Assembly (NCBI GenBank): GCA_027069135.1
Contig: JALXFE010000603.1
Location: 1-35,199 of the forward strand
Source of the DNA: Thermoanaerobaculia bacterium
GTDB taxonomy: Bacteria > Acidobacteriota > Thermoanaerobaculia > Multivoradales > JAHZIX01
Length of the DNA: 35,199 bases
Direction of reading: 5' to 3'
Shown here piece after piece: positions 14,106-33,669 of this stretch. Position numbers and translations under genes: made by a program. Below the pieces are notes generated by a model, which had not been told where the DNA came from, made no database searches, and saw nothing but the letters and a program-made list of their open reading frames with translations. How positions within the stretch are numbered: the stretch's first letter is position 1; each line of letters starts with the position of its first letter.

Positions 14106-15152
14106 ATGAACACCAGGCGAACGTTGACTTTCTTGCTTCTATCCGCGACCTTCGTCGCCTGTGGTAGCCCGGACTCCGGAACAACGGGTCCCGGAACGAC
14201 AGAGCCCTCGGCTCCGAAGACCCGATTCTTGAGCATCGGAACGGCCCCTCCCGGCGGGGCCTTCTTCGTCGTGGGCGGGGCCCTGGCAGAGGTCTTGGAA
14301 GCCCATCCGGGAGACTCCGGTTGGCGGGTCACGGCGGAGTCCACCAAGGGATCTCAAGAGAATATCCGCCGCCTCGAAAAGGGTGAGCTCGATCTGGCGC
14401 TGGCCAACTCCGCCATCAGCTATTTCGCCGTCCGCGGTGAAGGGGCCTGGAAGACCCCCTATGAGCTCCGGGCGATCATGACCCTGGCCCCCAACGTGGC
14501 GCTCTTCATCACCCCCCAGGGTTCCGGCGTCGAGAACATCTCCGATCTACGCGATCAGCGGGTGGTTCTGGGCCCGGCGGGCGCTGGCTTCGAGTACTTC
14601 TTGCGCCCCATACTCAAAGCCCATGGTCTGACCTACGACGATTTCTCGCCTCTCTACAGCACTCAAGTGGGAGCGGTAGATTTGCTCGCTGATGGCTCCG
14701 CGGCTGCTGCTTTCCTGGGAGGGGCGGTCCCCACCGCTTCGATCACCCAGGCGGCCAGTGGCCAAGATATTCGTTTCGTTCCCTTCGAGGTGAAAGCGCG
14801 TCAGGAGCTCATCGACGGCTTCCCCTTCTTTCGCGCCGCCACCATCCCCGCCGGTACCTACCGGGGGTTGGACACCGACTTTGAAGGCCTCGACGTGGGC
14901 TCCATGCATCTGATCACCTCCGCAAAGATGGACGACGACCACGCCTATCAGATCGCCAAGACCCTGTATGAATTCCGCCAGCAGGTAACGGAGCGCCACC
15001 CCGCGGGCAAGGCCATCAACCCCAAGAACGTGGTCCGCGATACCGGAACCCCGTTCCATCCCGGTGCGATCCGTTTCTATCGGGAAATCGGCATCTGGCC
15101 GGAGGAAGAGTCGGCTCCGCAACCGGCAACGGAGCCCGCGGGTCAGGGCTAA
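14106..15152 (+). CDS. TAXI-family TRAP transporter solute-binding lipoprotein
   Basis: Extracytoplasmic solute receptor of a TRAP-TAXI system (348 residues). A lipoprotein signal with lipobox FVAC (Cys19) anchors it. The mature part starts FLSIGTAPPGGAFFVVGGALAEVL, rather than the receptor type DctP, and has ESTKGSQENIRRLEKGELDLAL, a TAXI hallmark. AAGGGG is about 11 bases before the ATG. The fused membrane subunit follows 7 bases later, so the pair makes a complete sodium-driven importer. TAXI systems carry glutamate, other organic acids or unknown ligands; the substrate here is not visible. Confidence 0.92.
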   Translation: MNTRRTLTFLLLSATFVACGSPDSGTTGPGTTEPSAPKTRFLSIGTAPPGGAFFVVGGALAEVLEAHPGDSGWRVTAESTKGSQENIRRLEKGELDLALANSAISYFAVRGEGAWKTPYELRAIMTLAPNVALFITPQGSGVENISDLRDQRVVLGPAGAGFEYFLRPILKAHGLTYDDFSPLYSTQVGAVDLLADGSAAAAFLGGAVPTASITQAASGQDIRFVPFEVKARQELIDGFPFFRAATIPAGTYRGLDTDFEGLDVGSMHLITSAKMDDDHAYQIAKTLYEFRQQVTERHPAGKAINPKNVVRDTGTPFHPGAIRFYREIGIWPEEESAPQPATEPAGQG

Positions 15153-15159
15153 GATCCCG

Positions 15160-17106
15160 ATGGCCGCAACCTCTTCGAAGCAGGCCCCAAGAGCTCTGGA
15201 ACTGGCCCTCGGTGCTGGTCTTTGCCTCTTCGCCCTGACTGAGATCAACTATCCCCGACTAACGCCGCAGACTCAGTTGGGCGCTTTCACCGCCTTGGGT
15301 CTGACCCTATGCTTCCTCTCTTTCCCTACCGCTCGGCGGTGGCGCGGCCATCCCCTGTCACGACTCACCGATCGGGTGCTGGCGGGACTGTCCCTGATCT
15401 GCTGCTCCTACATCGCCGTACAGAGTGAGCCGATCTTTGAATCTCTTTGGATCGCCGGATCCTCCCTCGGGGACCGCGCCGGGTCGGAGACGGTTCCGGA
15501 CCTGGTGATCGGGGCTCTGGGTCTAGCCTTGGTCCTCGAGGCAGCCCGCCGCACCGTAGGCCTTTCCTTGCCGCTCTTGTCCCTGTTTTTCCTGGCCTAC
15601 GCCGCCCTCGGACCCCGCTTACCATCTTGGCTCTTCCCCCACCGGGGCTACAGTCTGGAGCGCATCGTCGGCCAGACGTTCCTGCACAGCCAGGGGGTTT
15701 TCGGAATCGCTCTCCAGGTGATGTTCACCTACGTCTTCCTCTTCGTTCTCTTCGGGGTCCTGCTGGAGGTTACCGGGGCGACGGCGTTTATCCTCGGGCT
15801 GGCTCGCCGCGTCTTCCGGCACAGTCCCGGCGGCGCCGCGAAGGTGGCCGTCCTGAGCAGCGGCCTCATGGGTTCTCTCTCCGGGAGTGCGGTCGCCAAC
15901 ACGGCGACGACGGGGACGTTCACCATCCCGATGATGCGCAGCGGCGGGATGAAGGCCCACGTCGCCGGGGGCGTGGAAGCCGCAGCCAGCTCCGGCGGGG
16001 CCCTGGTGCCGCCGGTCATGGGGGCCGGTGCCTACATGATGTTGGAGCTCGTGCAGCCGGCGGTGACTTATTTGGAGATCCTGCGGGCCGCCCTCATTCC
16101 CGCCCTCCTCTACTACCTCTCCCTTTTCCTCATCGTCCACTTCAAGGCGCGACAGACCGGCTCCGCAGCCTCTCTGGACGACTCCCCGGAGATCCCCTTG
16201 AAACCCTGGGCAGGAGTCATCTTCCTGGGCTCGTTTCTTACCCTGATCACGCTTTTACTTGTCGGCTACTCCCCCTTTCGGGCCGCCACCGTGGCCGGGG
16301 TAGCGGTGCTCCTTCTCAGCACCTTCAGACAAGAGACACGATTGGGATTTCAGAAACTCCTGCGAGCCTTCGCCAAAGCGGCGCGGGATATGGTTCCGCT
16401 CATCGCCGCCGCCGCCTGCGTCGGCGTGATCCTCGGCGTCGTGACCCTCACCGGAGTCGGCGGACGGCTACCCTCGGCACTTCTACCCCTGGCGGAGCAG
16501 AACCTCTTTTTCGCCTTGGTCGCCATCATGGCTTCTTCCATCGTCCTCGGCATGGGCCTACCCTCGGCGGTCTGTTATCTGCTGATGGCGACCTTGGTAG
16601 GGCCGGTGCTCGGCGGCCTGGGGGTCGTGCCCCTGGCCGCTCACCTCTTCATCTTCTATTTCGGAATGATGTCCATGGTGACTCCGCCGGTGGCCTTGGC
16701 AGCCTATACGGCAGCCTCCATCTCCGGCTCGAATATCTGGAAGACCTCCATCGCTGCGTTCCGCTTCGCCTCGGTCGGCTTCACCCTGCCTTTCATGTTC
16801 GTCTACCGACCGGAGCTGCTGCTCTTGAGCTCTGACGGGTCTCTGGCGGCGGCGGGGCCGGTTTTGCTCGCCGTGGTGGTGGCGATTCTTGGGATCATCC
16901 CTTTGGCAGCAGCGATTGCGGGCTACCTCTTCGGACCCTTGAGCCCAGGTCTTCGGGCGGGCCTTCTCGCGGCCAGTGGCCTCTTGCTCCTACCGATTCC
17001 TTCCACCACCGGCGCTGGCCTCGTCGTCTTGGCCGTTTGTTTCGGCCTCGCCTGGCGGCAGCGGGCTAGCTCCTCTCAAGGACAGGAAAACGCGCCCGTG
17101 TCCTGA
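15160..17106 (+). CDS. TRAP transporter fused permease (DctQM-type)
   Basis: Membrane subunit of the TAXI transporter, 648 residues, with the small 4-TM (Q) part fused to the large (M) part, as usual for TAXI systems. The conserved SGSAVANTATTGTFTIPMM region (about 278-296) is followed by GGVEAAASSGGALVPPVMGA. The second half carries GMGLPSAVCYLLMA and FGMMSMVTPPVALAAY, the other half of the transport core. The frame is open upstream into the TAXI gene, but the ATG at 15160 just after the TAXI stop is the sensible start. The 3' end overlaps the Calx-beta gene by 31 bases tail to tail. Confidence 0.92.
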   Translation: MAATSSKQAPRALELALGAGLCLFALTEINYPRLTPQTQLGAFTALGLTLCFLSFPTARRWRGHPLSRLTDRVLAGLSLICCSYIAVQSEPIFESLWIAGSSLGDRAGSETVPDLVIGALGLALVLEAARRTVGLSLPLLSLFFLAYAALGPRLPSWLFPHRGYSLERIVGQTFLHSQGVFGIALQVMFTYVFLFVLFGVLLEVTGATAFILGLARRVFRHSPGGAAKVAVLSSGLMGSLSGSAVANTATTGTFTIPMMRSGGMKAHVAGGVEAAASSGGALVPPVMGAGAYMMLELVQPAVTYLEILRAALIPALLYYLSLFLIVHFKARQTGSAASLDDSPEIPLKPWAGVIFLGSFLTLITLLLVGYSPFRAATVAGVAVLLLSTFRQETRLGFQKLLRAFAKAARDMVPLIAAAACVGVILGVVTLTGVGGRLPSALLPLAEQNLFFALVAIMASSIVLGMGLPSAVCYLLMATLVGPVLGGLGVVPLAAHLFIFYFGMMSMVTPPVALAAYTAASISGSNIWKTSIAAFRFASVGFTLPFMFVYRPELLLLSSDGSLAAAGPVLLAVVVAILGIIPLAAAIAGYLFGPLSPGLRAGLLAASGLLLLPIPSTTGAGLVVLAVCFGLAWRQRASSSQGQENAPVS

Positions 17107-25616: not shown

Positions 25617-25916
25617 TCAGGCCCCAGCGGAAATCGGGGTGGGTTCGTAGCGCTCGACCTGGATCTGGTCCTGATGCTGACGGGCCTGCGCAAGCTCGTA
25701 GGCTGTTTGCAGGCGTAGCCAATGATCGGCGTTGGACCAACCGGCTTTCTCCAACCGGATCGCCATGTCAGGAGAAATTCCAGACCGGCCGTTGATCACC
25801 CTCGAAAGGGTATGCCGGGTGACACGCAGAATCTTAGCCCCTTCAGTAATACTCAATTTCAACGGATCCAAACACGCATCTTTCACCGAGCGGCCTGGGT
25901 GTGGCGGATTCTTCAT
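25617..25916 (-). CDS. higA: HigA-family antitoxin
   Basis: Antitoxin of a HigBA pair, 99 residues, an XRE-type helix-turn-helix DNA-binding protein. [13 protein letters not shown] at the N-terminus, [28 protein letters not shown] (helix-turn-helix, read in parts) and [10 protein letters not shown] are characteristic. It would bind HigB and repress the operon through the palindrome upstream. ATG at 25916 is chosen over the one at 25922: AAGGG is 8 bases before it and family members begin MKNPPHPG. It starts 24 bases after the toxin stop; the toxin-first order is normal for higBA. The 3' end faces the VWFA-related gene 44 bases away. Confidence 0.9.
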
Positions 25917-25940
25917 GGCCATAGCCCTTGTCCCCTTTCG

Positions 25941-26219
25941 TCAGTGGTAGTCGACCAAGTTGACCTCAAAAGCCATTCGGTCCTCAAAACGGAAGATAAT
26001 GCGCCAATTGCCAGAAATCGTCACACTCCAGACGCCCTTCAGATCGCCTTTGAGTTGGTGGAGACGATATCCCGGCAAGTCAAGATCACCAGGAGCTTGG
26101 GCTCCGTCCAAATGGAACAACACATCACGGATCCGGTTTCGATGGTCAGCATGGACTTTGCTACCGTCACCTTGCTCGTAAAGCCGCTTCAGGCCCCGGT
26201 GTCGAAAGCTCCTAATCAT
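25941..26219 (-). CDS. higB: HigB-family toxin (RelE/ParE superfamily)
   Basis: A ribosome-dependent mRNA endonuclease toxin of 92 residues. MIRSFRHRGLKRLYEQGD, PGYRLHQLKGDLKGVWSVTISGNWRIIFRFE (read in two parts) and the C-terminal NLVDYH are hallmark HigB segments, including the Arg and terminal His that belong to the active site in this family. No defect is visible, so it should be active. A -10-like TACGAT lies only 5 bases before its ATG, so its mRNA may be nearly leaderless. It is the first gene of the pair and sits directly outside the left 27-bp repeat. Confidence 0.92.
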   Translation of the reverse strand: MIRSFRHRGLKRLYEQGDGSKVHADHRNRIRDVLFHLDGAQAPGDLDLPGYRLHQLKGDLKGVWSVTISGNWRIIFRFEDRMAFEVNLVDYH

Positions 26220-26250: not shown

Positions 26251-26280
26251 CACTAAGGCCGTGATTCCGCCCCGGTTTGG

Positions 26281-26301
26281 CGGACACTCCAAGTGTGTCC
26301 G
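26281..26301. repeat. short inverted repeat beside the left 27-bp repeat
   Basis: CGGACAC (26281-26287) and GTGTCCG (26295-26301) are perfect inverted arms around a 7-base loop. The pair ends exactly where the left 27-bp direct repeat begins. Confidence 0.6.
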
Positions 26302-26328
26302 GGAAGGTTCTCAGGACACCGGTGCGGG
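26302..26328 (+). repeat. 27-bp direct repeat, left copy (possible attL)
   Basis: Identical over 27 bases to 28424-28450; begins GGAAGGTTCTCAGG and ends ACCGGTGCGGG. Similarity stops abruptly on both sides. This copy has no coding role that I can see. Confidence 0.95.
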
Positions 26329-26572
26329 TCATCGGACTCTCCCTGGAAATCATTTGATCGAGCAAGGCAAACGAGAACCATCGCTATCTGTGCTACGGGC
26401 ATTGGCCGATGCTCTGGGAGTTCCTTTTGATGCACTAGTCATTTTGGCGCAGGGCCCAAAGAGCCAGCTTCGGACCGAAAGCGAAGTTGCGCAACGGTTG
26501 GCTGATTCCGTGCAGCGGCTAGCAAGCTCGGAGGAGGCACTGACAGCGCTACTCGCGAAAGAGAGTCCATAG
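26329..26572 (+). pseudogene. remnant of an XRE-family helix-turn-helix gene
   Basis: Only the second half of an XRE DNA-binding domain survives. IEQGKREPSLSVLRALADALGVPFDALV is the usual turn from helix 3 to helix 5 (read in parts), followed by a charged helical tail ending LLAKESP. The first helices are missing: similarity begins immediately after the 27-bp repeat, and the start of the surviving part seems split between two frames (GLS in one, NHL-IEQGK in the other), implying small indels. The open frame reaches back to GTG 26261 only through unrelated sequence. The stop is 2 bases before the reverse transcriptase start, so the two were probably one operon. Some retron classes have XRE-type partner proteins. 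Confidence 0.65.
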
Positions 26573-26574
26573 AA

Positions 26575-27630
26575 ATGGACATTCGCGACGTGAGGCCTCA
26601 CCACATAGCTGATGCAATGGGACTACCGTTGAACGTGCTCTACAAGCAGGTTCGGCGGCCAGAGTCCAATTATCACCCTCCCAGGGAAGAGATTGACAAG
26701 AAAGGGCAGACCCGTATCCTCGACGTCCCCAGGTACCCGTTTAAACTTCGACTGAGAAAACTCCATCGCTTCTTTCAAAAGGAGCTGGACTTCCCAGGTG
26801 CCGCCCATGGAGGGGTTCGAGGGCGTTCTTCCCTCTCAAGTGCTCGAAAACACGTCGGGCGGGCGGTTGTCATAACTCGCGATGCTCAAGATTGCTTCCC
26901 ATCGATCAAGAGACGGCTTCTCGGCCGCGAGCTCAGGGCTCTGGGTTTCGTCCCTCAATGTGTCGACCTTCTTCTTCGCCTCATAACCGTACATGACCGG
27001 ATTCCTCAAGGCTCTCCCACCAGCAATGACGCCGTGAACCTCTTGTTCTGGCGCCAAGACCTCCGAATAACGCAGGAACTGTCACGCATTGGAGGTCGAT
27101 TCTCGCGAAATGCAGACGATCTTGTCGCCTCGACTAATGGACGACCTGGTTCGGAAGAAAAGGCGGGCAGTGCTCTGGAAGATGCCATGAAGTCTCTCGG
27201 GTTAAGAGTGAACCAGCGGAAGAAGGACGACCACGGTCGCCAGGGCGCGGATGCTTGCCAATATGTACATGGCCTCGTTGTAAACAGCGGATCTGGGATT
27301 AGACCATCCAGTGATCATCTACGCACTGCTCTTTCGGCCGGTAAAGGCTATGTAGCGTCCTCGCATTTGGCTTCTCCAACGACATTGGAATCTGTGGCGT
27401 GCAAACGAAAGGTCCTTCTGGGTTGGATGGCGTACTTTGGCGGGACCGAAAGAAGTAATGTTAAACATCTTGGCCACCTCCTTCGGGCCGGGGATCGGCA
27501 GGTAGAGCGCGGCCTCACAGAAGCAGGCCTGCAGGCACAGCGAACTAGCTGGTGGGTCGCTTCCCGGCGTGGTCCAGGACCCAAAGAGCTAGCTCGAATC
27601 TGGCGGACGAAAGCTGCTACCGCGCGATGA
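26575..27630 (+). CDS. retron-like reverse transcriptase
   Basis: A 351-residue RT of bacterial retron type. Motifs in order: DKKGQTRILDVP (41-52), HGGVRGRSS (78-86), SARKHVG (89-95, comparable to the retron NAxxH motif), motif A TRDAQDCFPSI with catalytic Asp103 (101-111), PQGSPTSNDAVNLL (144-157), NADD (179-182) with both catalytic aspartates, and VHGLVVN (231-237) at the place of the retron VTG motif. Two departures from consensus are YADD changed to NADD (codon AAT) and VTG changed to VHG. The frame is otherwise intact and full length. No msr-msd RNA can be recognised: the XRE remnant leaves no room before the RT. It may be an inactive or divergent retron RT; a stand-alone defence RT is an alternative. 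Confidence 0.8.
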   Translation: MDIRDVRPHHIADAMGLPLNVLYKQVRRPESNYHPPREEIDKKGQTRILDVPRYPFKLRLRKLHRFFQKELDFPGAAHGGVRGRSSLSSARKHVGRAVVITRDAQDCFPSIKRRLLGRELRALGFVPQCVDLLLRLITVHDRIPQGSPTSNDAVNLLFWRQDLRITQELSRIGGRFSRNADDLVASTNGRPGSEEKAGSALEDAMKSLGLRVNQRKKDDHGRQGADACQYVHGLVVNSGSGIRPSSDHLRTALSAGKGYVASSHLASPTTLESVACKRKVLLGWMAYFGGTERSNVKHLGHLLRAGDRQVERGLTEAGLQAQRTSWWVASRRGPGPKELARIWRTKAATAR

Positions 27631-27841: not shown

Positions 27842-28141
27842 TCAGCGGGCCCTTCGGCGCCACTCCTCGGGATTTCGCGCATTGTGAAGAATCGCGAGAA
27901 CTTCGAGGAGACCCCCGTGTTTGCGAAAATAGATTCTGAAAGGGAAACGGCGGGTGACCACTGCGCCTCTTACGTCGTGGTGGATGCGGGGAAAATGCTC
28001 AGGATTGTCCTGGATGCGACGGAGAAGCTGCAGGATAACGTCCAAGAACTCGTCGCCGAGGCCGGACTGCCGGTCTTCATACCACTGCGCCGACTTCCGA
28101 AGCTCTGCTTCAACTAGCGGCGAGAGACCTGGCCAGAGCAT
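27842..28141 (-). CDS. ParE/RelE-family toxin
   Basis: A 99-residue toxin of the ParE/RelE superfamily. The N-terminus VEAELRKSAQWYEDRQSGLGDEFLDVI is the usual helix pair (read in parts), followed by NPEHFPRIHHDVRGAVVTRRFPFRIYF and the C-terminal LAILHNARNPEEW, common to the plasmid-stabilisation type. ATG directly follows the antitoxin stop (TAAATG), so translation is coupled. This toxin is usually paired with antitoxins of the kind found upstream. It may act on gyrase or on mRNA; the sequence does not decide. It is the last gene of its pair, convergent with the RT. Confidence 0.9.
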   Translation of the reverse strand: MLWPGLSPLVEAELRKSAQWYEDRQSGLGDEFLDVILQLLRRIQDNPEHFPRIHHDVRGAVVTRRFPFRIYFRKHGGLLEVLAILHNARNPEEWRRRAR

Positions 28142-28366
28142 TTAGCGGCGACGCAAACCAGCCCGGATTCGCTCCACGACTTCTGGAGCTGAAGTGAAGG
28201 TGTCCGGATTCGCATTGGCAAGAGCAATCCGCTCCTCAAGCACTTGGCGGTGCCAGTCGGGCATCGGGGCCAAATTCGCCTGAAGAGCTTCAAGGAGAGC
28301 TTCTTTCTTTTTCCGAGGCAACGCCAACACCTGCTCCTCTAGGGCTATGGATTCTTCACGGGCCAT
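28142..28366 (-). CDS. antitoxin, addiction-module component (TIGR02574-like)
   Basis: A 74-residue antitoxin. The pattern ALEEQVLALPRKKKEALLEALQ followed by WHRQVLEERIALANANPDTF (read in parts) matches the short 'putative addiction module component' family that accompanies ParE/RelE toxins. It is all helical and ends Arg-rich. The stop TAA is immediately followed by the ATG of the toxin. The likely transcription start coincides with its ATG, so no ribosome binding site is expected or seen. It lies 57 bases inside the right 27-bp repeat. Confidence 0.88.
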   Translation of the reverse strand: MAREESIALEEQVLALPRKKKEALLEALQANLAPMPDWHRQVLEERIALANANPDTFTSAPEVVERIRAGLRRR

Positions 28367-28423: not shown

Positions 28424-28450
28424 GGAAGGTTCTCAGGACACCGGTGCGGG
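28424..28450 (+). repeat. 27-bp direct repeat, right copy (possible attR)
   Basis: Identical to 26302-26328. On the minus strand it encodes the last residues and stop of the DtxR/MntR-type gene (PAPVS and TGA at 28435-28433). Confidence 0.95.
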
Positions 28451-29110
28451 CAGGGGAGCGACCTGGATTTTGGCGGCGGCGCCGAAGCCTAGGCTGACGC
28501 TGTCGCCGGTGGGGAGGAGCCGGAGGCGTACGGTCTCGGCGGCGGTGTTGCGCTCCTTGACTTCGACTCGGCTCCCGGGAACCAGGCCCTGCTGCTCCAG
28601 GAGTTGGAGGAAGCCGCTGCTCTGATCCCGGACCCGGGAGACACGGAAGGGCAGGCTCAGGGCACAGCTTAGAAGATTCTCATGATCGCGCCGCTCCACA
28701 TGCCCTTGGGCATTGGGAATGGGATCACCGTGGGGATCCACCCGGGGGTATCCCAACATGCTGTCCATACGCTCGACGAAGCGATCGGAGACCACGTGCT
28801 CCAGCTGCTCGGCTTCCTCGTGGACTTCCCCCCAATCCATGCCGACCACCTCTACCAGAAACAGCTCGATGAGACGATGGCGGCGCAGCACGTGGAGCGC
28901 GAGCTTGCGGCCGGCCTCCGTCAGACTGACGCCGCTATAGGGTTCGTAGCCGATCAGACCGCTTTGGGAAAGAGTCTTGACCATGGCCGTGACGGTTCCT
29001 GAAGCGACCCCCAAAGCGCTGGCGATGCGCCCCATGGGGACCAGGTTTCCGGTCTCTTCCTGCTCCAGGAAGATGCACTTCAAATAGTCTTCGACGGTAC
29101 TCGTGGCCAT
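28433..29110 (-). CDS. DtxR/MntR-family metal-dependent regulator
   Basis: A 225-residue regulator with three parts: a winged helix (about 1-60: VEDYLKCIF, then IASALGVASGTVTAMVKTL), a metal-binding dimerisation domain (about 65-145) and a C-terminal FeoA/SH3-like domain (about 155-220). Asp8, the His of RRHRLIE, and the E-x-x-E-H set in AEQLEH correspond to MntR ligands rather than to the Cys-containing DtxR set, although position 11 is Lys instead of Glu. It would repress genes when Mn2+ or Fe2+ is abundant. It is 34 bases behind the PhnE-like gene on the same strand and probably belongs to that operon. Its last codons lie in the 27-bp repeat. Confidence 0.9.
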   Translation of the reverse strand: MATSTVEDYLKCIFLEQEETGNLVPMGRIASALGVASGTVTAMVKTLSQSGLIGYEPYSGVSLTEAGRKLALHVLRRHRLIELFLVEVVGMDWGEVHEEAEQLEHVVSDRFVERMDSMLGYPRVDPHGDPIPNAQGHVERRDHENLLSCALSLPFRVSRVRDQSSGFLQLLEQQGLVPGSRVEVKERNTAAETVRLRLLPTGDSVSLGFGAAAKIQVAPLPAPVS

Positions 29111-29144
29111 GAATGCGTATTGTTTTCCCGAGAAACCCTTAAAG

Positions 29145-29921
29145 TCAACGGACCCAACGCCGTGCCCAATACGTGAGCTGGTCGAGAATCGCCACGACGA
29201 CGATGATCACCAAGAGAAGAACGGCGACCTTCTCGTATTGGAATCCTCGGACGTAGAGCTGAATGTAATAACCGATACCTCCGGCGCCGACCAAGCCGAG
29301 AACTGCGGCATCCCGGAAGTTCATCTCCAGGCGATATACGGTAAAGGCCACGACCTGGGGAACGGATTGAGGGAAGAGGCCCCAGCGGACGGTTTGAAGC
29401 CACCCGGCTCCAGTCCCGGCGACGGCCTCGACGATGCCCTTGTCGGCGGTCTCGAATTCTTCCGCGTAGAACTTTCCCAACATGCCGATGGAGTGGAAAG
29501 CGATGGCCAGAGCCCCCGGGAACGGCCCCAACCCCACCGCCGTCACGAAAAGGATCGCCACGACGATCAGGGGGATCGAGCGTAGGAACCCGAGGAAAAA
29601 CTTCGTCGCATGGGCCAGCCCCGGGGGAACCACGTTCGAGGCCGCCAAGAAACCCATCGGCAAACCGATCAAGGTCGCCAACGCGGTACCGCCGACGGCG
29701 ATCATCAAGGTCTCCCAGGTAGATCGAAGAACCAGGGTCGTAACGGACCCATCCGGTGGCACCAGACGGGAAAAGAACTCGGCGAAACGAGGACCGGAGC
29801 GCACCAAGGCCCCGAGATCGAACTCTGCCCCTCTAAGGGCCAGAATGACCAGGAGACTCGCGACGAGCCAGCTACAGGCCTGAGCCAAAAGCCGGAGTGT
29901 CCAGCTTCGGCGCAAAGTCAT
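29145..29921 (-). CDS. phnE: PhnE-like ABC transporter permease
   Basis: Inner-membrane permease of 258 residues with about six transmembrane segments. The domain signature is typical of the phosphonate permease family: LVLRSTWETLMIAVGGTALATLIGLPMGFLAA (read in parts), FFLGFLRSIPLIVVAILFV, GKFYAEEFETADKGIVEA and NFRDAAVLGLVGAGGIGYYI. GGAGG and a longer G-run lie 9-14 bases before the ATG at 29921. An open frame extends further upstream but overlaps the ATPase gene. The start overlaps the end of the ATPase gene by 50 bases. The substrate could be phosphonate, phosphite or something else. Confidence 0.9.
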   Translation of the reverse strand: MTLRRSWTLRLLAQACSWLVASLLVILALRGAEFDLGALVRSGPRFAEFFSRLVPPDGSVTTLVLRSTWETLMIAVGGTALATLIGLPMGFLAASNVVPPGLAHATKFFLGFLRSIPLIVVAILFVTAVGLGPFPGALAIAFHSIGMLGKFYAEEFETADKGIVEAVAGTGAGWLQTVRWGLFPQSVPQVVAFTVYRLEMNFRDAAVLGLVGAGGIGYYIQLYVRGFQYEKVAVLLLVIIVVVAILDQLTYWARRWVR

Positions 29922-30717
29922 CTTCACGACCCCCTCCTCCCTCTCCGGGTGGCCCGGACGCACGGGTGCTGCGATACACCTTCGCACCGTGGGCCTCTGT
30001 AAATCCTCGAGGTGGTCCGTCGTAGACCACCCGCCCATCCGCTAACCCCAAGAACCGGCTGGCGTATCCACGGGCCAACTCCGGCTGGTGAAAATTCACC
30101 AATAGCGTCACTCCCCGCCGGGCGACGCACTCCACCAAGAGATCCAAGACGTCCTCCGCAAGCTCCGGGTCCAGGCTCGAGGTGGGTTCGTCCGCAACGA
30201 CGACTTTCGCCTCCTGCATCAGAGCCCGGGCGATGGCGGCCCGCTGACGTTGGCCTCCGGAGAGGGTTTCCACCCGCCGGTGTCCCAACCCCTTGAGCCC
30301 CACCTCCTCGAGAATCTCTTCCGCCTTGCGCCACTCCTCGGCCGGATACCAACCGAGGAGGCTGCTGAAAGTCCCGACCCTCGAGAGACTGCCCGTCAGG
30401 ACATTGCCCACGACGCTCATGCGCGGCACTAGCAGGAAGGCCTGGTCGATCATCGCTACCTGCCGCTGGACTCTCCGGCGCCGCCGCCGATTCCCGGCGG
30501 CGGGATCCTGCCCCAGAACGCGGACGAAACCGGTAGACGGTTTGAGACGCCCTTTGATGAGCTTCGAGAGAGTCGTTTTCCCGGAACCGCTATGGCCCAA
30601 GACGAAGACACGCTCCCCGGGAAAAATTTCGAGATCTTCGAGGTCCAGAGCCCGAGTCTTTCCGAAGAGCACCTGGACCTCAGAGAACCGGATCACCGGG
30701 GTGGCAGCGCTAGCCAT
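29872..30717 (-). CDS. phnC: PhnC-like ABC transporter ATP-binding protein
   Basis: Cytoplasmic ATPase, 281 residues. Walker A GHSGSGKT at 41-48, signature LSGGQRQR at 152-159, Walker B VVVADEP at 172-178 and the H-loop in NFHQPE. The family-specific insertion after Walker A (RRRRRRVQRQVAMI and the LTGSLSRV segment) matches PhnC. The C-terminal 40 residues are Gly-rich and extend into the permease start. ATG at 30717 overlaps the end of phnD by 8 bases; the frame is open further upstream without homology. Confidence 0.92.
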   Translation of the reverse strand: MASAATPVIRFSEVQVLFGKTRALDLEDLEIFPGERVFVLGHSGSGKTTLSKLIKGRLKPSTGFVRVLGQDPAAGNRRRRRRVQRQVAMIDQAFLLVPRMSVVGNVLTGSLSRVGTFSSLLGWYPAEEWRKAEEILEEVGLKGLGHRRVETLSGGQRQRAAIARALMQEAKVVVADEPTSSLDPELAEDVLDLLVECVARRGVTLLVNFHQPELARGYASRFLGLADGRVVYDGPPRGFTEAHGAKVYRSTRASGPPGEGGGGREDDFAPKLDTPAFGSGL

Positions 30718-31645
30718 CACCCTCGGAGACCTTCCCCAACGGAGGCAAGAATCCTTCCGCGGTGGCCAGGGCCTCCGTTTCTGCATAGGTTTGCGTACCG
30801 ACCTCGACGTACCCGTCGACCCCGTAAAGCTGCTGTAACAAGGGTCGGTCCGGGCCTTCGTTGAGAGCCAGAAGAGCTTTCTTGAAACCCTCCCGGGAGC
30901 TCGAATCCAACCCTTTTCGAACGACGACACAATGGGAAGGGATCGGTCGGGATTCGGCGATCCAGACGATCTGATCCCTCTCTTCGCCACGGAGCAGATC
31001 GAAGGCGAACTCGCCGATCCCGGCGGCGTCGACGAAGCCGTTGAGCACAGCGCGCAAAGCTTGTTCGTCGCCGCCGGCAAAATAGATCCGGCGGAAGTAA
31101 CGGTCCGCTGAATCCCTACCCCCGATGAGGCCGGCATCCTTGAAGATCACCAAGGGATAGAGATAGCCGGAAGAGGACACCGGATCGACGAAGGCGATGG
31201 TCTTCCCCTCGAGATCCGCCGGCTTGCCGAGCCCACTGTCCTTGCGCACGAAGATCCGTGACCGATAGGTCGTCGATCCGCCGTACACCTCCCCCAGGAT
31301 CGGCTCTGCCCCGCCGTGGCGATGGGCCAGCAGATATTGCAGAGCTCCCATGAAGGCAGCGTCCGCGGAGCCATTTCGCAGGGCCTCCACCACGCCGGCA
31401 TAGTCGGTAGCGACGAAGGGTTTCACCGGTCGCTTCAAAGCCTGTTCCAGGTACTCGACCACGGGATCGATATCTTCAAGGAGCTGGTTGGGATTCTCGT
31501 AGGCGATAAAAACGATCTTGAAAGGTTCTTGGGCCACCCCGGGGCAGGCCCATAGGACTCCCCACATCACGAGTACTACCACCGCCGACCACCAGGTGGC
31601 GGGTCTTGGACCTCGAGCTTCGAATCTTCTGTCGTCTTGCTGCAT
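30710..31645 (-). CDS. phnD: PhnD-like phosphate/phosphonate-type substrate-binding protein
   Basis: Periplasmic receptor of the importer, 311 residues. A hydrophobic signal peptide (about 20-38, ending GVAQ) precedes the domain PFKIVFIAYENPNQLL, then VVEYLEQALKRPVKPFVATDYAGVVEALRNGSADAAFMG (read in parts), all typical for PhnD and PtxB-like receptors. SSGYLYPLVIFKDAG is the usual ligand loop. ATG at 31645 has AGGA 5 bases before it; the open frame extends 42 codons upstream without homology. The gene is between the di-heme protein and PhnC. The ligand is not given by sequence: the metal-type regulator and cytochrome in the same operon argue that it may not be a simple phosphonate. Confidence 0.88.
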   Translation of the reverse strand: MQQDDRRFEARGPRPATWWSAVVVLVMWGVLWACPGVAQEPFKIVFIAYENPNQLLEDIDPVVEYLEQALKRPVKPFVATDYAGVVEALRNGSADAAFMGALQYLLAHRHGGAEPILGEVYGGSTTYRSRIFVRKDSGLGKPADLEGKTIAFVDPVSSSGYLYPLVIFKDAGLIGGRDSADRYFRRIYFAGGDEQALRAVLNGFVDAAGIGEFAFDLLRGEERDQIVWIAESRPIPSHCVVVRKGLDSSSREGFKKALLALNEGPDRPLLQQLYGVDGYVEVGTQTYAETEALATAEGFLPPLGKVSEGDG

Positions 31646-31667
31646 TTTGTCCTCACTCTTCCTGCCG

Positions 31668-33605
31668 TCAGCGCAGGACCTCGGCGTTCTCTTCGTAGAG
31701 GCGGCGATATTGCGCGACCCGCTGCGCCACGGCGGCGGGGTCGCCTCGCAGGCGGGCTGCGAGAGCTTCATCCATGAGCTGTGCTAAATGATCCAGGGTT
31801 GGAAGGTGGCTCCGGTCCTGAATATCCCATTTGTGGGCCCGCAGCTCGAAAGCGATGGTGGCGAAAGTGGTGTCCAGCAGCTCCCCTTCTCCCCGGGCGG
31901 CCAGCAACTCGTAGGCGGAGAGGAAGAAGCTGAACTCTTCGAGCTCGGAGTCGAGGGTGTGGAGCGTGTCCTCATAACCCTCGACGCCGCCGCCGATCAC
32001 CTCGAGGTAGGCCGTAAGATCCGCCAGCTCGCCTTCGTCAAGATCCAAAGAGTACGTGGTGTTGAACCAACTGTTGACCGCGCGCAGCGTAGGCTGACTT
32101 CCGTCGTGGAAGTACGGTGCCGTAAAGCGGCTGCTGAGCAGAGTGGGTGTATCCATGGCCCGGTCTCTGGAATCGTCCCCAGCGCCGACAACCGAGCCGA
32201 TATCGTGACGCCGCCGGTCCAGGAAATGATCCTCGGGAACGTGACAGCTGGCACAGGAGCGCCCCCCCATCTGTTCGAAAGGTCGGAGGAAGATTCTCTC
32301 CCCCCGCTGGCTGGCGATGGAGGCTCCCGCCGCGAGCCGGCCGTCCGGAGCCAATTGCGGATTGGGCAGGAAATCGAATTCCAATTGATAGGCCACCAAC
32401 GCATCGAGCACCAGGGGTGCCGGCTCCGGGCCTGCGAACTCGTGAACGATGACATTCCGCGTGAACTCCCGCAGCGACTCGAAGCGACCGTTGCGGCCAT
32501 AGGGTGCAGTAAAGCGAAGGCCTCGGAGATCCGGGATATCCAGGGGATCGAAATGACCGTTATTGGCGTGGGGAGCGAAGAAGCTGTTGGAGACGTCCAC
32601 CCCGCCCGGCCGGACAGAAAGCCCCGGAATAAAGAGCTCAGGGTTGGTGACTCCCTTGTTGTGGCAGGTATTGCAGGAGATCCCCAGGGAACGCGCCGGC
32701 TCGCCGAAAATGAACGGGCTGTCAAAAGCCATGTCTCCAATGGCGATCAGGGGCGTCTCAGACTCGTCCACGCCGCGGGCCGCCATGTTGAGGATCTGGC
32801 GGGGGCGCGGAAGCTGCTTGTTGATCTCAGCCCCCGGGGGCAGCGCGGCGGGAACGACACCCCGGCCAATTCGTCTAGAGGATAGAGCCGGCACCCGGGA
32901 AGCTCCGGGCTGCGATCCCAAGTACCGGACCGAAAGGTAGGCCTCGACAGCAGTCGAGCTGGCGGCGAAATCGTGAGTCTTCGGAGAGATCGCACCGGCG
33001 CCGAGAATCCCCGGGCTTCCGAGGGCGCTGGCGAGCTCCAGCCAATGAAGCCCAAGGTCTCGAAAGACCTCGGGCTCGGCGACTCGAAGGTGGGGCTCGA
33101 AGGCCGCCCAAATCCCGCGGGCCTGATCGAGCTGCTCGGAGGCGATCCGGTGATTGCCAAGAGAGCTCCTGGCCAGCGCAAGGTGCTGGCGAAGGGCCTC
33201 CGCGGTCGCCCCTCCCGCAAGCTGGGAAAGCTGCTGCGCCGCCTTTCTTCGCACCGGGAAGGGAGGGGGCTCGTCTGCCGCTGCCGGACCAAAGAAAGGC
33301 GCCAGCGTCGAGGCCACAGAGGACCGGAAAACGGCAGCGGCTTCCGGGTCCGTCTCTCCCAGGCCCTCGGCGAGAACCTGGAGATCCCTCTCCACTTCGG
33401 CCCAGGGCAGGGGATTCAAGGCGAGCAGGAACTCCAGGCGGCGGTAACTCTCCGCCATGGGATGGAGATCCTCCGGGGGGACGATATGGGCCCGGGCCTC
33501 GGAGCCGACGAACAAGGACCAGGCGACCACCAGGGCGGCCGACCCATACCAGGCCTGCTTTCTTCCTCCGGAGAGGTGACCTTCATGTCGATTCTTGAGA
33601 AACAT
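31668..33605 (-). CDS. di-heme cytochrome c peroxidase-like protein
   Basis: A 645-residue exported protein with a long N-terminal region and a C-terminal di-heme module. Signal peptide 1-39 (SEARAH). Residues 45-280 are mainly helical with no recognised domain; GLHWLE at 185-190 has the GxHxxE spacing of imelysins. Residues 285-600 form the MauG/CCP-like part: heme sites CNTCH (311-315) and CASCH (451-455), TAPYGRNGRF and TAPYFHDGSQPTLRAV (495-510), the latter being the hallmark of this family. Peroxide reduction or an oxidation of a partner is the family role. GGAGGAG precedes the ATG. It is the first gene of the operon with the PhnDCE-like importer, and its promoter overlaps a palindrome. 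Confidence 0.88.
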   Translation of the reverse strand: MFLKNRHEGHLSGGRKQAWYGSAALVVAWSLFVGSEARAHIVPPEDLHPMAESYRRLEFLLALNPLPWAEVERDLQVLAEGLGETDPEAAAVFRSSVASTLAPFFGPAAADEPPPFPVRRKAAQQLSQLAGGATAEALRQHLALARSSLGNHRIASEQLDQARGIWAAFEPHLRVAEPEVFRDLGLHWLELASALGSPGILGAGAISPKTHDFAASSTAVEAYLSVRYLGSQPGASRVPALSSRRIGRGVVPAALPPGAEINKQLPRPRQILNMAARGVDESETPLIAIGDMAFDSPFIFGEPARSLGISCNTCHNKGVTNPELFIPGLSVRPGGVDVSNSFFAPHANNGHFDPLDIPDLRGLRFTAPYGRNGRFESLREFTRNVIVHEFAGPEPAPLVLDALVAYQLEFDFLPNPQLAPDGRLAAGASIASQRGERIFLRPFEQMGGRSCASCHVPEDHFLDRRRHDIGSVVGAGDDSRDRAMDTPTLLSSRFTAPYFHDGSQPTLRAVNSWFNTTYSLDLDEGELADLTAYLEVIGGGVEGYEDTLHTLDSELEEFSFFLSAYELLAARGEGELLDTTFATIAFELRAHKWDIQDRSHLPTLDHLAQLMDEALAARLRGDPAAVAQRVAQYRRLYEENAEVLR

Positions 33606-33632
33606 CCCACGATCTCCTCCGAGATTTTTGAC

Positions 33633-33654
33633 GACTCAAAATATATATCTAGTC
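33633..33654 (-). promoter_or_regulatory. AT-rich near-palindrome, candidate DtxR/MntR-type operator
   Basis: A 22-base near-palindrome with 16 of 22 positions symmetric: ends GACT and AGTC with an ATATATAT core. Outer TTTTTGA/TCAAAAA arms extend it imperfectly to about 33625-33663. It overlaps the -10 region of the operon that ends with the DtxR/MntR-type gene. The assignment to that regulator is inferred from position; it does not match the classical MntR or IdeR box closely. Confidence 0.45.
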
Positions 33655-33669
33655 TATCAAAAAAATCAA
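33640..33669 (-). promoter_or_regulatory. promoter of the di-heme/PhnDCE operon
   Basis: On the minus strand TTGATT (33669-33664) and TATATT (33645-33640) with an 18-base spacer, about 35 bases before the ATG at 33605. The -10 box lies inside the near-palindrome. Confidence 0.5.

Follow-up and report, generated by a model that had tools for sequence, protein, structure and literature searches.

Does an importer with the look of a phosphonate transporter serve phosphorus nutrition when its genes stand between those of a di-heme cytochrome and a metal-dependent repressor? The question is raised by contig JALXFE010000603.1 of a Thermoanaerobaculia bacterium (assembly GCA_027069135.1), the whole 35,199-nucleotide stretch of which is referred to here as the window. 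Five minus-strand genes, extending from 33605 to 28433, encode, in order of transcription, a di-heme c-type protein, PhnD, PhnC, PhnE, and a DtxR/MntR-type regulator. The intergenic distances (22 bp between cytochrome and PhnD, two overlaps, and 34 bp between PhnE and regulator) make a single transcript likely. The set is a conserved importer–cytochrome system, is not a phosphonate importer, and most probably takes up metal by means of a transferrin-like receptor.

Conservation of the cytochrome–importer set

With the cytochrome as query, 84,980 GTDB genomes yielded 33 loci, of which 32 are clear relatives, distributed over Acidobacteriota, Planctomycetota, Nitrospinota, Hydrogenedentota, Verrucomicrobiota (Opitutales), and Bdellovibrionota (Oligoflexia); loci and genomes are cited by our handles, L and G, respectively. 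Full-length cytochrome relatives show 49–63% identity across almost all 645 residues. Thirty of the loci have a contig that extends past the cytochrome, and in 29 of these PhnD is located directly downstream of it in the same orientation, the sole exception (L052) having a shortened cytochrome, and PhnC and PhnE follow PhnD at every locus with enough contig. Variations include an outer-membrane barrel gene inserted after the cytochrome (L033) and the gene order C-E-cytochrome-D (G008). A full-length cytochrome occurs in nine of 98 relatives of the window's genome, and a close PhnD in the same nine and no others (G046 has a cytochrome fragment only); the window's own genome has both. In a sample of 396 genomes from the phylum, the PhnD family stands beside the cytochrome in ten, and one genome (G381) has a distant relative without a cytochrome. 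When paralogues, PtxB, and ArrX are included in the tree, a single branch (support 82/85) places the cytochrome-linked PhnDs together on one side. The original prediction, made from the window's letters, had proposed the cytochrome and importer as a set; the adjacency and the nine-for-nine co-occurrence establish it as a real conserved unit, and the opposite outcome, related genomes in which the importer never stands beside the cytochrome or regulator, is not what the relatives display.

The regulator gene recurs as well. A DtxR/MntR-family gene adjoins 11 loci (the window plus ten) in four arrangements, being downstream in the operon in the window, L025, L037, L048, and L031, divergent in L032, L036, and L054, and upstream on the same strand in L033, L034, and L053. 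By a rough estimate, about 0.1 chance adjacency is expected in 33 loci at a few DtxR/MntR genes per genome. The adjoining regulators belong to more than one subfamily (DtxR with an FeoA domain, and short MntR), and those of L032 and L033 pass the NCBIfam curated MntR cut-offs (158.8 vs 138 and 195.6 vs 153 bits). The metal-dependent repressor that had been counted as part of the set is thus upheld in many lineages. FeoAB genes beside the set in L032 were considered as evidence of shared control and rejected, being convergent with the MntR gene.

In Nitrospinota (L041–L051), genes for an AMP-dependent synthetase and an amidohydrolase lie downstream of the operon in conserved order.

The PhnD pocket, phosphonate, and transferrin

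In PtxB, ligand contacts are made by Y55, Y100, S130, T131, S132, H160, and cap residue Y208 with D22, and in the C-P-lyase PhnD the specificity cap is D205/E177 (PMC5700983). The PtxB contacts were mapped onto the window's PhnD with the numbering of 5jvb, which agrees with that of PMC5700983. In the alignment, Te_PtxB residues Y55, Y100, S130–S132, H160, Y208, and D22 correspond to Y82, Y127, S157–S159, D193, H238, and Y49. H238 is present in every member of the PhnD family, and Y127 is also invariant. Position 193 (PtxB H160) is occupied by Asp except in clade IV (L012, L128–L132), which has Tyr there. S-T-S is replaced by D-M-S in clade III (Planctomycetota, Opitutales, L028), in which position 100 is Asp, and by S-E-S in clade IV, in which position 82 is His. 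An S-T-S...H oxyanion motif with either cap (D205/E177 or Y208/D22) is not found in the family, H160 being replaced by Asp or Tyr, Y208 by His, and D22 by Y49. Judged from the alignment, the residues specifying phosphite or phosphonate are lost, and acidic, Tyr, and His residues are positioned where the anion was held.

An ordinary phosphonate or phosphite importer, with the cytochrome as a chance neighbour, is on this evidence very improbable. PhnE is above its equivalog cut-off (TIGR01097, 263.9 vs 216.7 bits) and the best PDB sequence matches of the receptor are PtxB, but PhnD and PhnC are below theirs (TIGR03431, 172.4 vs 261.1 bits; TIGR02315, 224 vs 266.1 bits), His160 and the cap Tyr208/Asp205 are replaced, one clade has no S-T-S, and the cytochrome has been retained over hundreds of millions of years of divergence. 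No C-P lyase, phn hydrolase, or ptxD-like gene was seen beside any locus in a reading of open reading frames that is not a full annotation. The claim that the importer lies outside the Pho and C-P-lyase systems therefore holds, and the receptor is without the residues that define a phosphonate/phosphite-specific protein. Compared with PhnDCE/PtxABC (PF12974), the set has the same three-gene ABC architecture and fold and retains Y82, Y127, and, in most clades, the Ser-rich anion site; it differs in being linked to a cytochrome and DtxR/MntR instead of C-P lyase or phosphite dehydrogenase. Databases label these proteins as phosphonate importers, so that a set found in at least six phyla, for the most part in uncultured marine and soil lineages, is classed with phosphorus nutrition, whereas the evidence favours metal uptake.

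The pocket has a counterpart in transferrin. In the human transferrin N-lobe, D63, Y95, Y188, and H249 are the iron ligands, and E83 and Y85 form the second shell. In an alignment of PhnD with the human N-lobe (a sequence with numbering that reproduces D63, Y95, T120, R124, Y188, and H249), Y127 corresponds to Y95, H238 to H249, D193 to Y188, and position 100 to D63. In addition, E119 and Y121 fall on second-shell residues E83 and Y85, and P-S-H238 falls on P247-S248-H249. None of the three residues E119, Y121, and H238 is present in any of ten PhnD paralogues and two PtxB, or in ArrX. A family profile reaches the transferrins of the PDB (melanotransferrin, E 1.9e-9); the gathering cut-off of PF00405 is reached by no member, 9 of 28 matching weakly (best E 0.017) and none in the window's own genome. 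The residues shared with the transferrin site could reflect either descent or convergence. Unlike transferrin (PF00405), PhnD is a single lobe and a secreted bacterial ABC receptor.

A structure search with the AlphaFold model of PhnD (pLDDT 90) gave PhnD, ArrX, and PtxB structures at Z 25–30, ArrX being the single best (Z 30). After PhnD, PtxB, ArrX, AioX, and HtxB, the next folds are lobes of holo ovotransferrin, lactoferrin, and transferrin (Z 23–24, 2.6–2.9 Å, 250 residues), which outrank every other binding protein listed in the search; in particular, the ovotransferrin N-lobe 1iej matches at Z 24.2 and 2.6 Å over 250 residues. The rank of ArrX would suit sensing or uptake of arsenic, antimony, or another oxyanion in the manner of ArrX/AioX, with the di-heme protein as oxidase. 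However, ArrX and AioX accompany sensor kinases and not PhnC/PhnE, their pocket residues differ from those of the family, and DtxR/MntR control does not fit; we give this explanation hardly any weight.

Distant PhnDs without a cytochrome form clade V (L133/L136 and L140–L145; G381, G125, G309, and G149). The member in G381 combines a Tyr/Tyr/His transferrin-like trio with an intact S-T-S. An FTR1 permease and a TonB receptor are encoded divergently from the G381 gene, which was set aside as weak support, being found in only one of the four clade V genomes.

Probable metal acquisition and the di-heme protein

Metal acquisition, suggested in the original prediction, is the best reading of the role of the set and is supported by the pocket changes, the regulators, and the conservation of the set; we put the probability that the cluster is a periplasmic metal-acquisition system, with the di-heme protein acting just before capture by PhnD, at roughly 55%. 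In the mechanism that we propose, the oxyanion pocket of PhnD would have been turned into a metal site by Y127, D193 or Y193, and H238, resembling the hold of transferrin on Fe(III), and the Ser-rich helix N-terminus would be free for a synergistic anion, e.g. phosphate or carbonate. The secreted di-heme protein would most likely oxidise Fe(II) (or Mn(II)), giving the trivalent ion that PhnD would bind, or, alternatively, might free the metal from a ligand before capture. PhnC and PhnE would import the captured cargo, and the metal-loaded regulator would shut the promoter through a palindrome at 33625–33642. We infer metal binding, the identity of the metal (Fe(III) favoured over Mn by about two to one, Mn being possible), the oxidation step, and repression by the adjacent regulator.

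The di-heme protein has two CxxCH motifs (C311/C314/H315 and C451/C454/H455) that are invariant in the alignment of homologues, in which H40, H48, M292, H346, M446, H467, H500, and H591 are also conserved. The CCP_MauG family (PF03150) is matched by the second heme half only, at 37.4 bits vs a gathering cut-off of 25.6. Similarity to MauG, MbnH, and hydrazine synthase gamma is weak and falls far short of equivalog cut-offs, the MbnH/MauG equivalogs giving 30 vs 362.9 bits (TIGR04039) and 23 vs 443.9 bits (TIGR03791). With MbnH, MauG, and the di-heme cytochrome c peroxidases (PF03150), the protein shares the two CxxCH hemes and PYxHxG-type motifs; unlike them, it carries large helical additions at both termini and a predicted N-terminal His, and its heme halves are in an order like that of hydrazine synthase gamma. 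The helical parts (residues ~40–235 and ~548–645) have no Pfam match, are well predicted in the structure model, and match unrelated bundles in a structure search. Matching of the whole cytochrome fold was rejected, the heme region having pLDDT < 50 and BccP, MauG, and MacA reaching only Z 8–9 at ~7 Å.

A signal-peptidase-like A/G directly precedes H40 (HIVPPE..HP) in 28 of 29 sequences, and the mature protein therefore probably starts with His40, as in histidine-brace copper proteins. Residues 40–48, with H40 and a second His, H48, constitute a candidate histidine-brace metal site, conserved in 28 of 29 homologues.

The distant relationship of the di-heme protein to MauG and MbnH also bears on a different cargo, namely an organic ligand or metal chelate (a siderophore fragment, or a phosphonate- or catechol-type compound) that the di-heme protein would modify or oxidise, as MauG and MbnH act on protein tryptophans. 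The differences in pocket residues between clades could reflect different chelates, and in one genome (L138; G036) a TonB siderophore receptor and a PepSY protein are encoded beside the set in divergent orientation, a neighbourhood that also speaks for iron as the metal. Nevertheless, the invariant H238 and Y127 and the retained transferrin-like second shell argue for one metal core across clades, and a reading of the neighbours of the homologous loci revealed no recurring biosynthesis gene beside the set. We consider import of a chelate unlikely.

The regulator points towards manganese in part. The window's protein has the expected Pfam domains (PF01325, 50.0 vs 26 bits; PF02742, 111.9 vs 27 bits) and is below the MntR equivalogs (175.8 vs 350 and 75 vs 153 bits). 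At the MntR ligand positions, it has Asp8, His78, Glu101, Glu104, and His105, with Lys11 for Glu11. It thus shares with MntR/DtxR the Pfam domains, MntR-type ligand residues, and a palindromic operator at the promoter, and differs in an added FeoA domain, in K11 for E11, in the operator TTTTTGAGTACTCAAAAA, and in an apparent regulon of one genomic site. A manganese system under an MntR-type regulator, with the di-heme protein either a peroxidase against periplasmic H2O2 or a maker of Mn(III), is the rival that we rate highest, although still as rather unlikely. It would account for the curated MntR scores of L032 and L033 and for the Mn-type Asp8 and the Glu at the DtxR Cys102 position of the window's regulator, and transferrin-type sites bind Mn(III) too. 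On the other side, the Glu11 of MntR is Lys (K11) in the window's regulator, a pocket of Tyr, Asp, and His suits trivalent iron better, and the operon is no substitute for Nramp and tends to accompany the absence of FeoB. Specifically, 6 of 10 operon-bearing genomes have no FeoB, compared with 8 of 61 that do not carry the operon (Fisher p 0.003, uncorrected for kinship). For Nramp, the corresponding counts of genomes that lack it are 1 of 10 and 11 of 61; with no association, Nramp was rejected as the importer that the operon replaces.

Several observations weigh against iron acquisition as set out above. The window's PhnD has only two of the four transferrin iron ligands (the equivalents of Y95 and H249), with D193 for Y188 and G100 for D63; clade III has D100 at the D63 position and clade IV has Y193 at the Y188 position, and no clade has all four. 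The similarity to transferrin is, by profile comparison, a property of the whole PhnD superfamily, only the site residues being particular, because the human N-lobe is matched more strongly by a generic profile of PhnD paralogues (P 4e-5 and 2e-6) than by the profile of the family itself (2e-4); transferrin-specific sequence homology was rejected on these values. The heme region of the di-heme protein is poorly predicted (pLDDT < 50). In genomes at least 90% complete, the FeoB correlation falls to 3 of 7 vs 7 of 47 (p 0.11, kinship uncorrected). The regulators look Mn-type, and two exceed curated MntR cut-offs, a point in favour of Mn. Finally, 62 of 99 relatives have an orthologue of the window's regulator, and most of these lack the operon. 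Since the orthologue is common in the order away from the operon, the regulator may be the lineage's general Mn/Fe sensor; with no informative neighbour there, it was rejected as a specific marker of the operon.

A more specific proposal is tentative: a widespread bacterial uptake of transferrin type, in which a phosphonate-receptor scaffold would hold Fe(III) or Mn(III) with a synergistic anion, served by its own di-heme oxidase with a predicted N-terminal His site and by a one-site operator. If so, the set would be a bacterial counterpart of ceruloplasmin plus transferrin, and the clades that separately have D63-, Y188-, and H249-like ligands would show the assembly of the transferrin site from an oxyanion receptor. 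The broader metal-acquisition reading, if true, would add a metal-uptake system whose ABC importer has a di-heme protein as its obligate partner, would account for a possible iron supply in several genomes without FeoB, and would offer, for experiment, bacterial relatives of transferrin's fold in which its site is partly present, bearing on the origin of the transferrin iron site.

Known importers offer partial parallels. The ferric importers FbpABC/FutABC likewise combine a periplasmic binding protein with an ABC importer, and the Fe(III) with a synergistic anion proposed here is a further parallel, whereas the window's set has another binding-protein branch, another permease family, and a cytochrome partner that FbpABC/FutABC do not have. 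With EfeUOB and P19/FTR1, the set shares a proposed logic of a secreted redox protein (heme peroxidase EfeB in EfeUOB) and an iron importer; unlike EfeUOB, the operon has no FTR1/EfeU permease or DyP-type EfeB, and uses PhnE-type ABC import and a CCP_MauG-type heme protein. In the open-licence literature, no description was found of a PhnD linked with DtxR, iron, or transferrin. For now, the set is best filed as a variant of the ABC metal importers.

A gene for a PF13557 outer-membrane barrel (LITDRPDQTES...) adjoins the set in L023 (9722–10570), L024, L026, L029, L030, L032, L033, L134, L135, L138, L146, L147, and L149, downstream in most loci and upstream in clade IV, and is absent beside the window's own operon. 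The barrel is possibly the outer-membrane pore of the cytochrome–PhnDCE system and may, in many relatives, serve as the entry pore.

Promoter, operator, and surroundings

The promoter that had been placed at 33640–33669 is corroborated by its relatives: a −35 element TTGATT and a −10 element ATATAT are separated by a 17-bp spacer, and equal spacing is present before the relatives' genes (Table 1). The operator had been assigned to an AT-rich near-palindrome at 33633–33654 (8 of 11 pairs), which is not conserved; the conserved element lies at 33625–33642, a shift of ~10 bp. In particular, TTTTTGAGTACTCAAAAA is common to the upstream regions of Acidobacteriota and Opitutales, at a fixed place directly behind a −10 box that is spaced 17 bp from a TTGAC-type −35 element. 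L023 matches TTTTTGAGTACTCAAAAA perfectly, and L037 has TTATTTTGATTAATCAAAATAA, perfect over 22 bp. The core TTTTGANNNNTCAAAA occurs exactly once in the 7.17-Mb genome, at this operon, and also once in G013 and G048; it precedes the cytochrome in G001, G033, and G044, each with one or two further sites. A regulon search with 2 mismatches was rejected, its extra matches being at the level of a reversed-pattern control. A dedicated single-site operator, as the genome-wide counts suggest, fits an autoregulated operon, and we infer that the regulator binds the 33625–33642 palindrome.

In Nitrospinota (L041–L051), it is another palindrome, TTTAGRCATGYCTAAA, that precedes the promoter of the same operon.

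Table 1. Genes and promoter elements of the operon in the window
Feature	Coordinates	Strand	Remarks
−35 box TTGATT	33664..33669	-	spacing conserved in relatives
−10 box ATATAT	33641..33646	-	17-bp spacer to −35
Candidate operator ATTTTGAGTCGTCAAAAA (consensus TTTTTGAGTACTCAAAAA)	33625..33642	-	overlaps end of −10 box; conserved between lineages
Secreted di-heme c-type protein	31668..33605	-	645 aa; CNTCH 311–315, CASCH 451–455; PF03150 match
PhnD-type periplasmic binding protein	30710..31645	-	311 aa; pocket Y82, Y127, S157–S159, D193, H238; second shell E119, Y121
PhnC-type ABC ATPase	29872..30717	-	281 aa
PhnE-type permease	29145..29921	-	258 aa; above PhnE equivalog cut-off
DtxR/MntR-family regulator, C-terminal FeoA domain	28433..29110	-	Pfam domains; Mn-type ligand residues but K11

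A toxin–antitoxin pair and then a retron-like unit follow 3′ of the regulator gene, and neither is part of the operon. The pair, directly downstream of the regulator gene, comprises a ParE-type toxin and a PF09720 antitoxin (27842–28363, minus strand). The unit (26261–27630, plus strand) consists of an HTH gene followed by a reverse transcriptase gene, with best PADLOC matches to HTH_VI (E 3.5e-9) and RT_VI (E 5e-32), and is a probable type VI retron. A HigB-like toxin and HTH antitoxin pair is located at 25617–26219 (minus strand). At 14106–17106 (plus strand), the window carries genes for a TAXI-type TRAP transporter, comprising a receptor-like open reading frame and a fused permease-like open reading frame.

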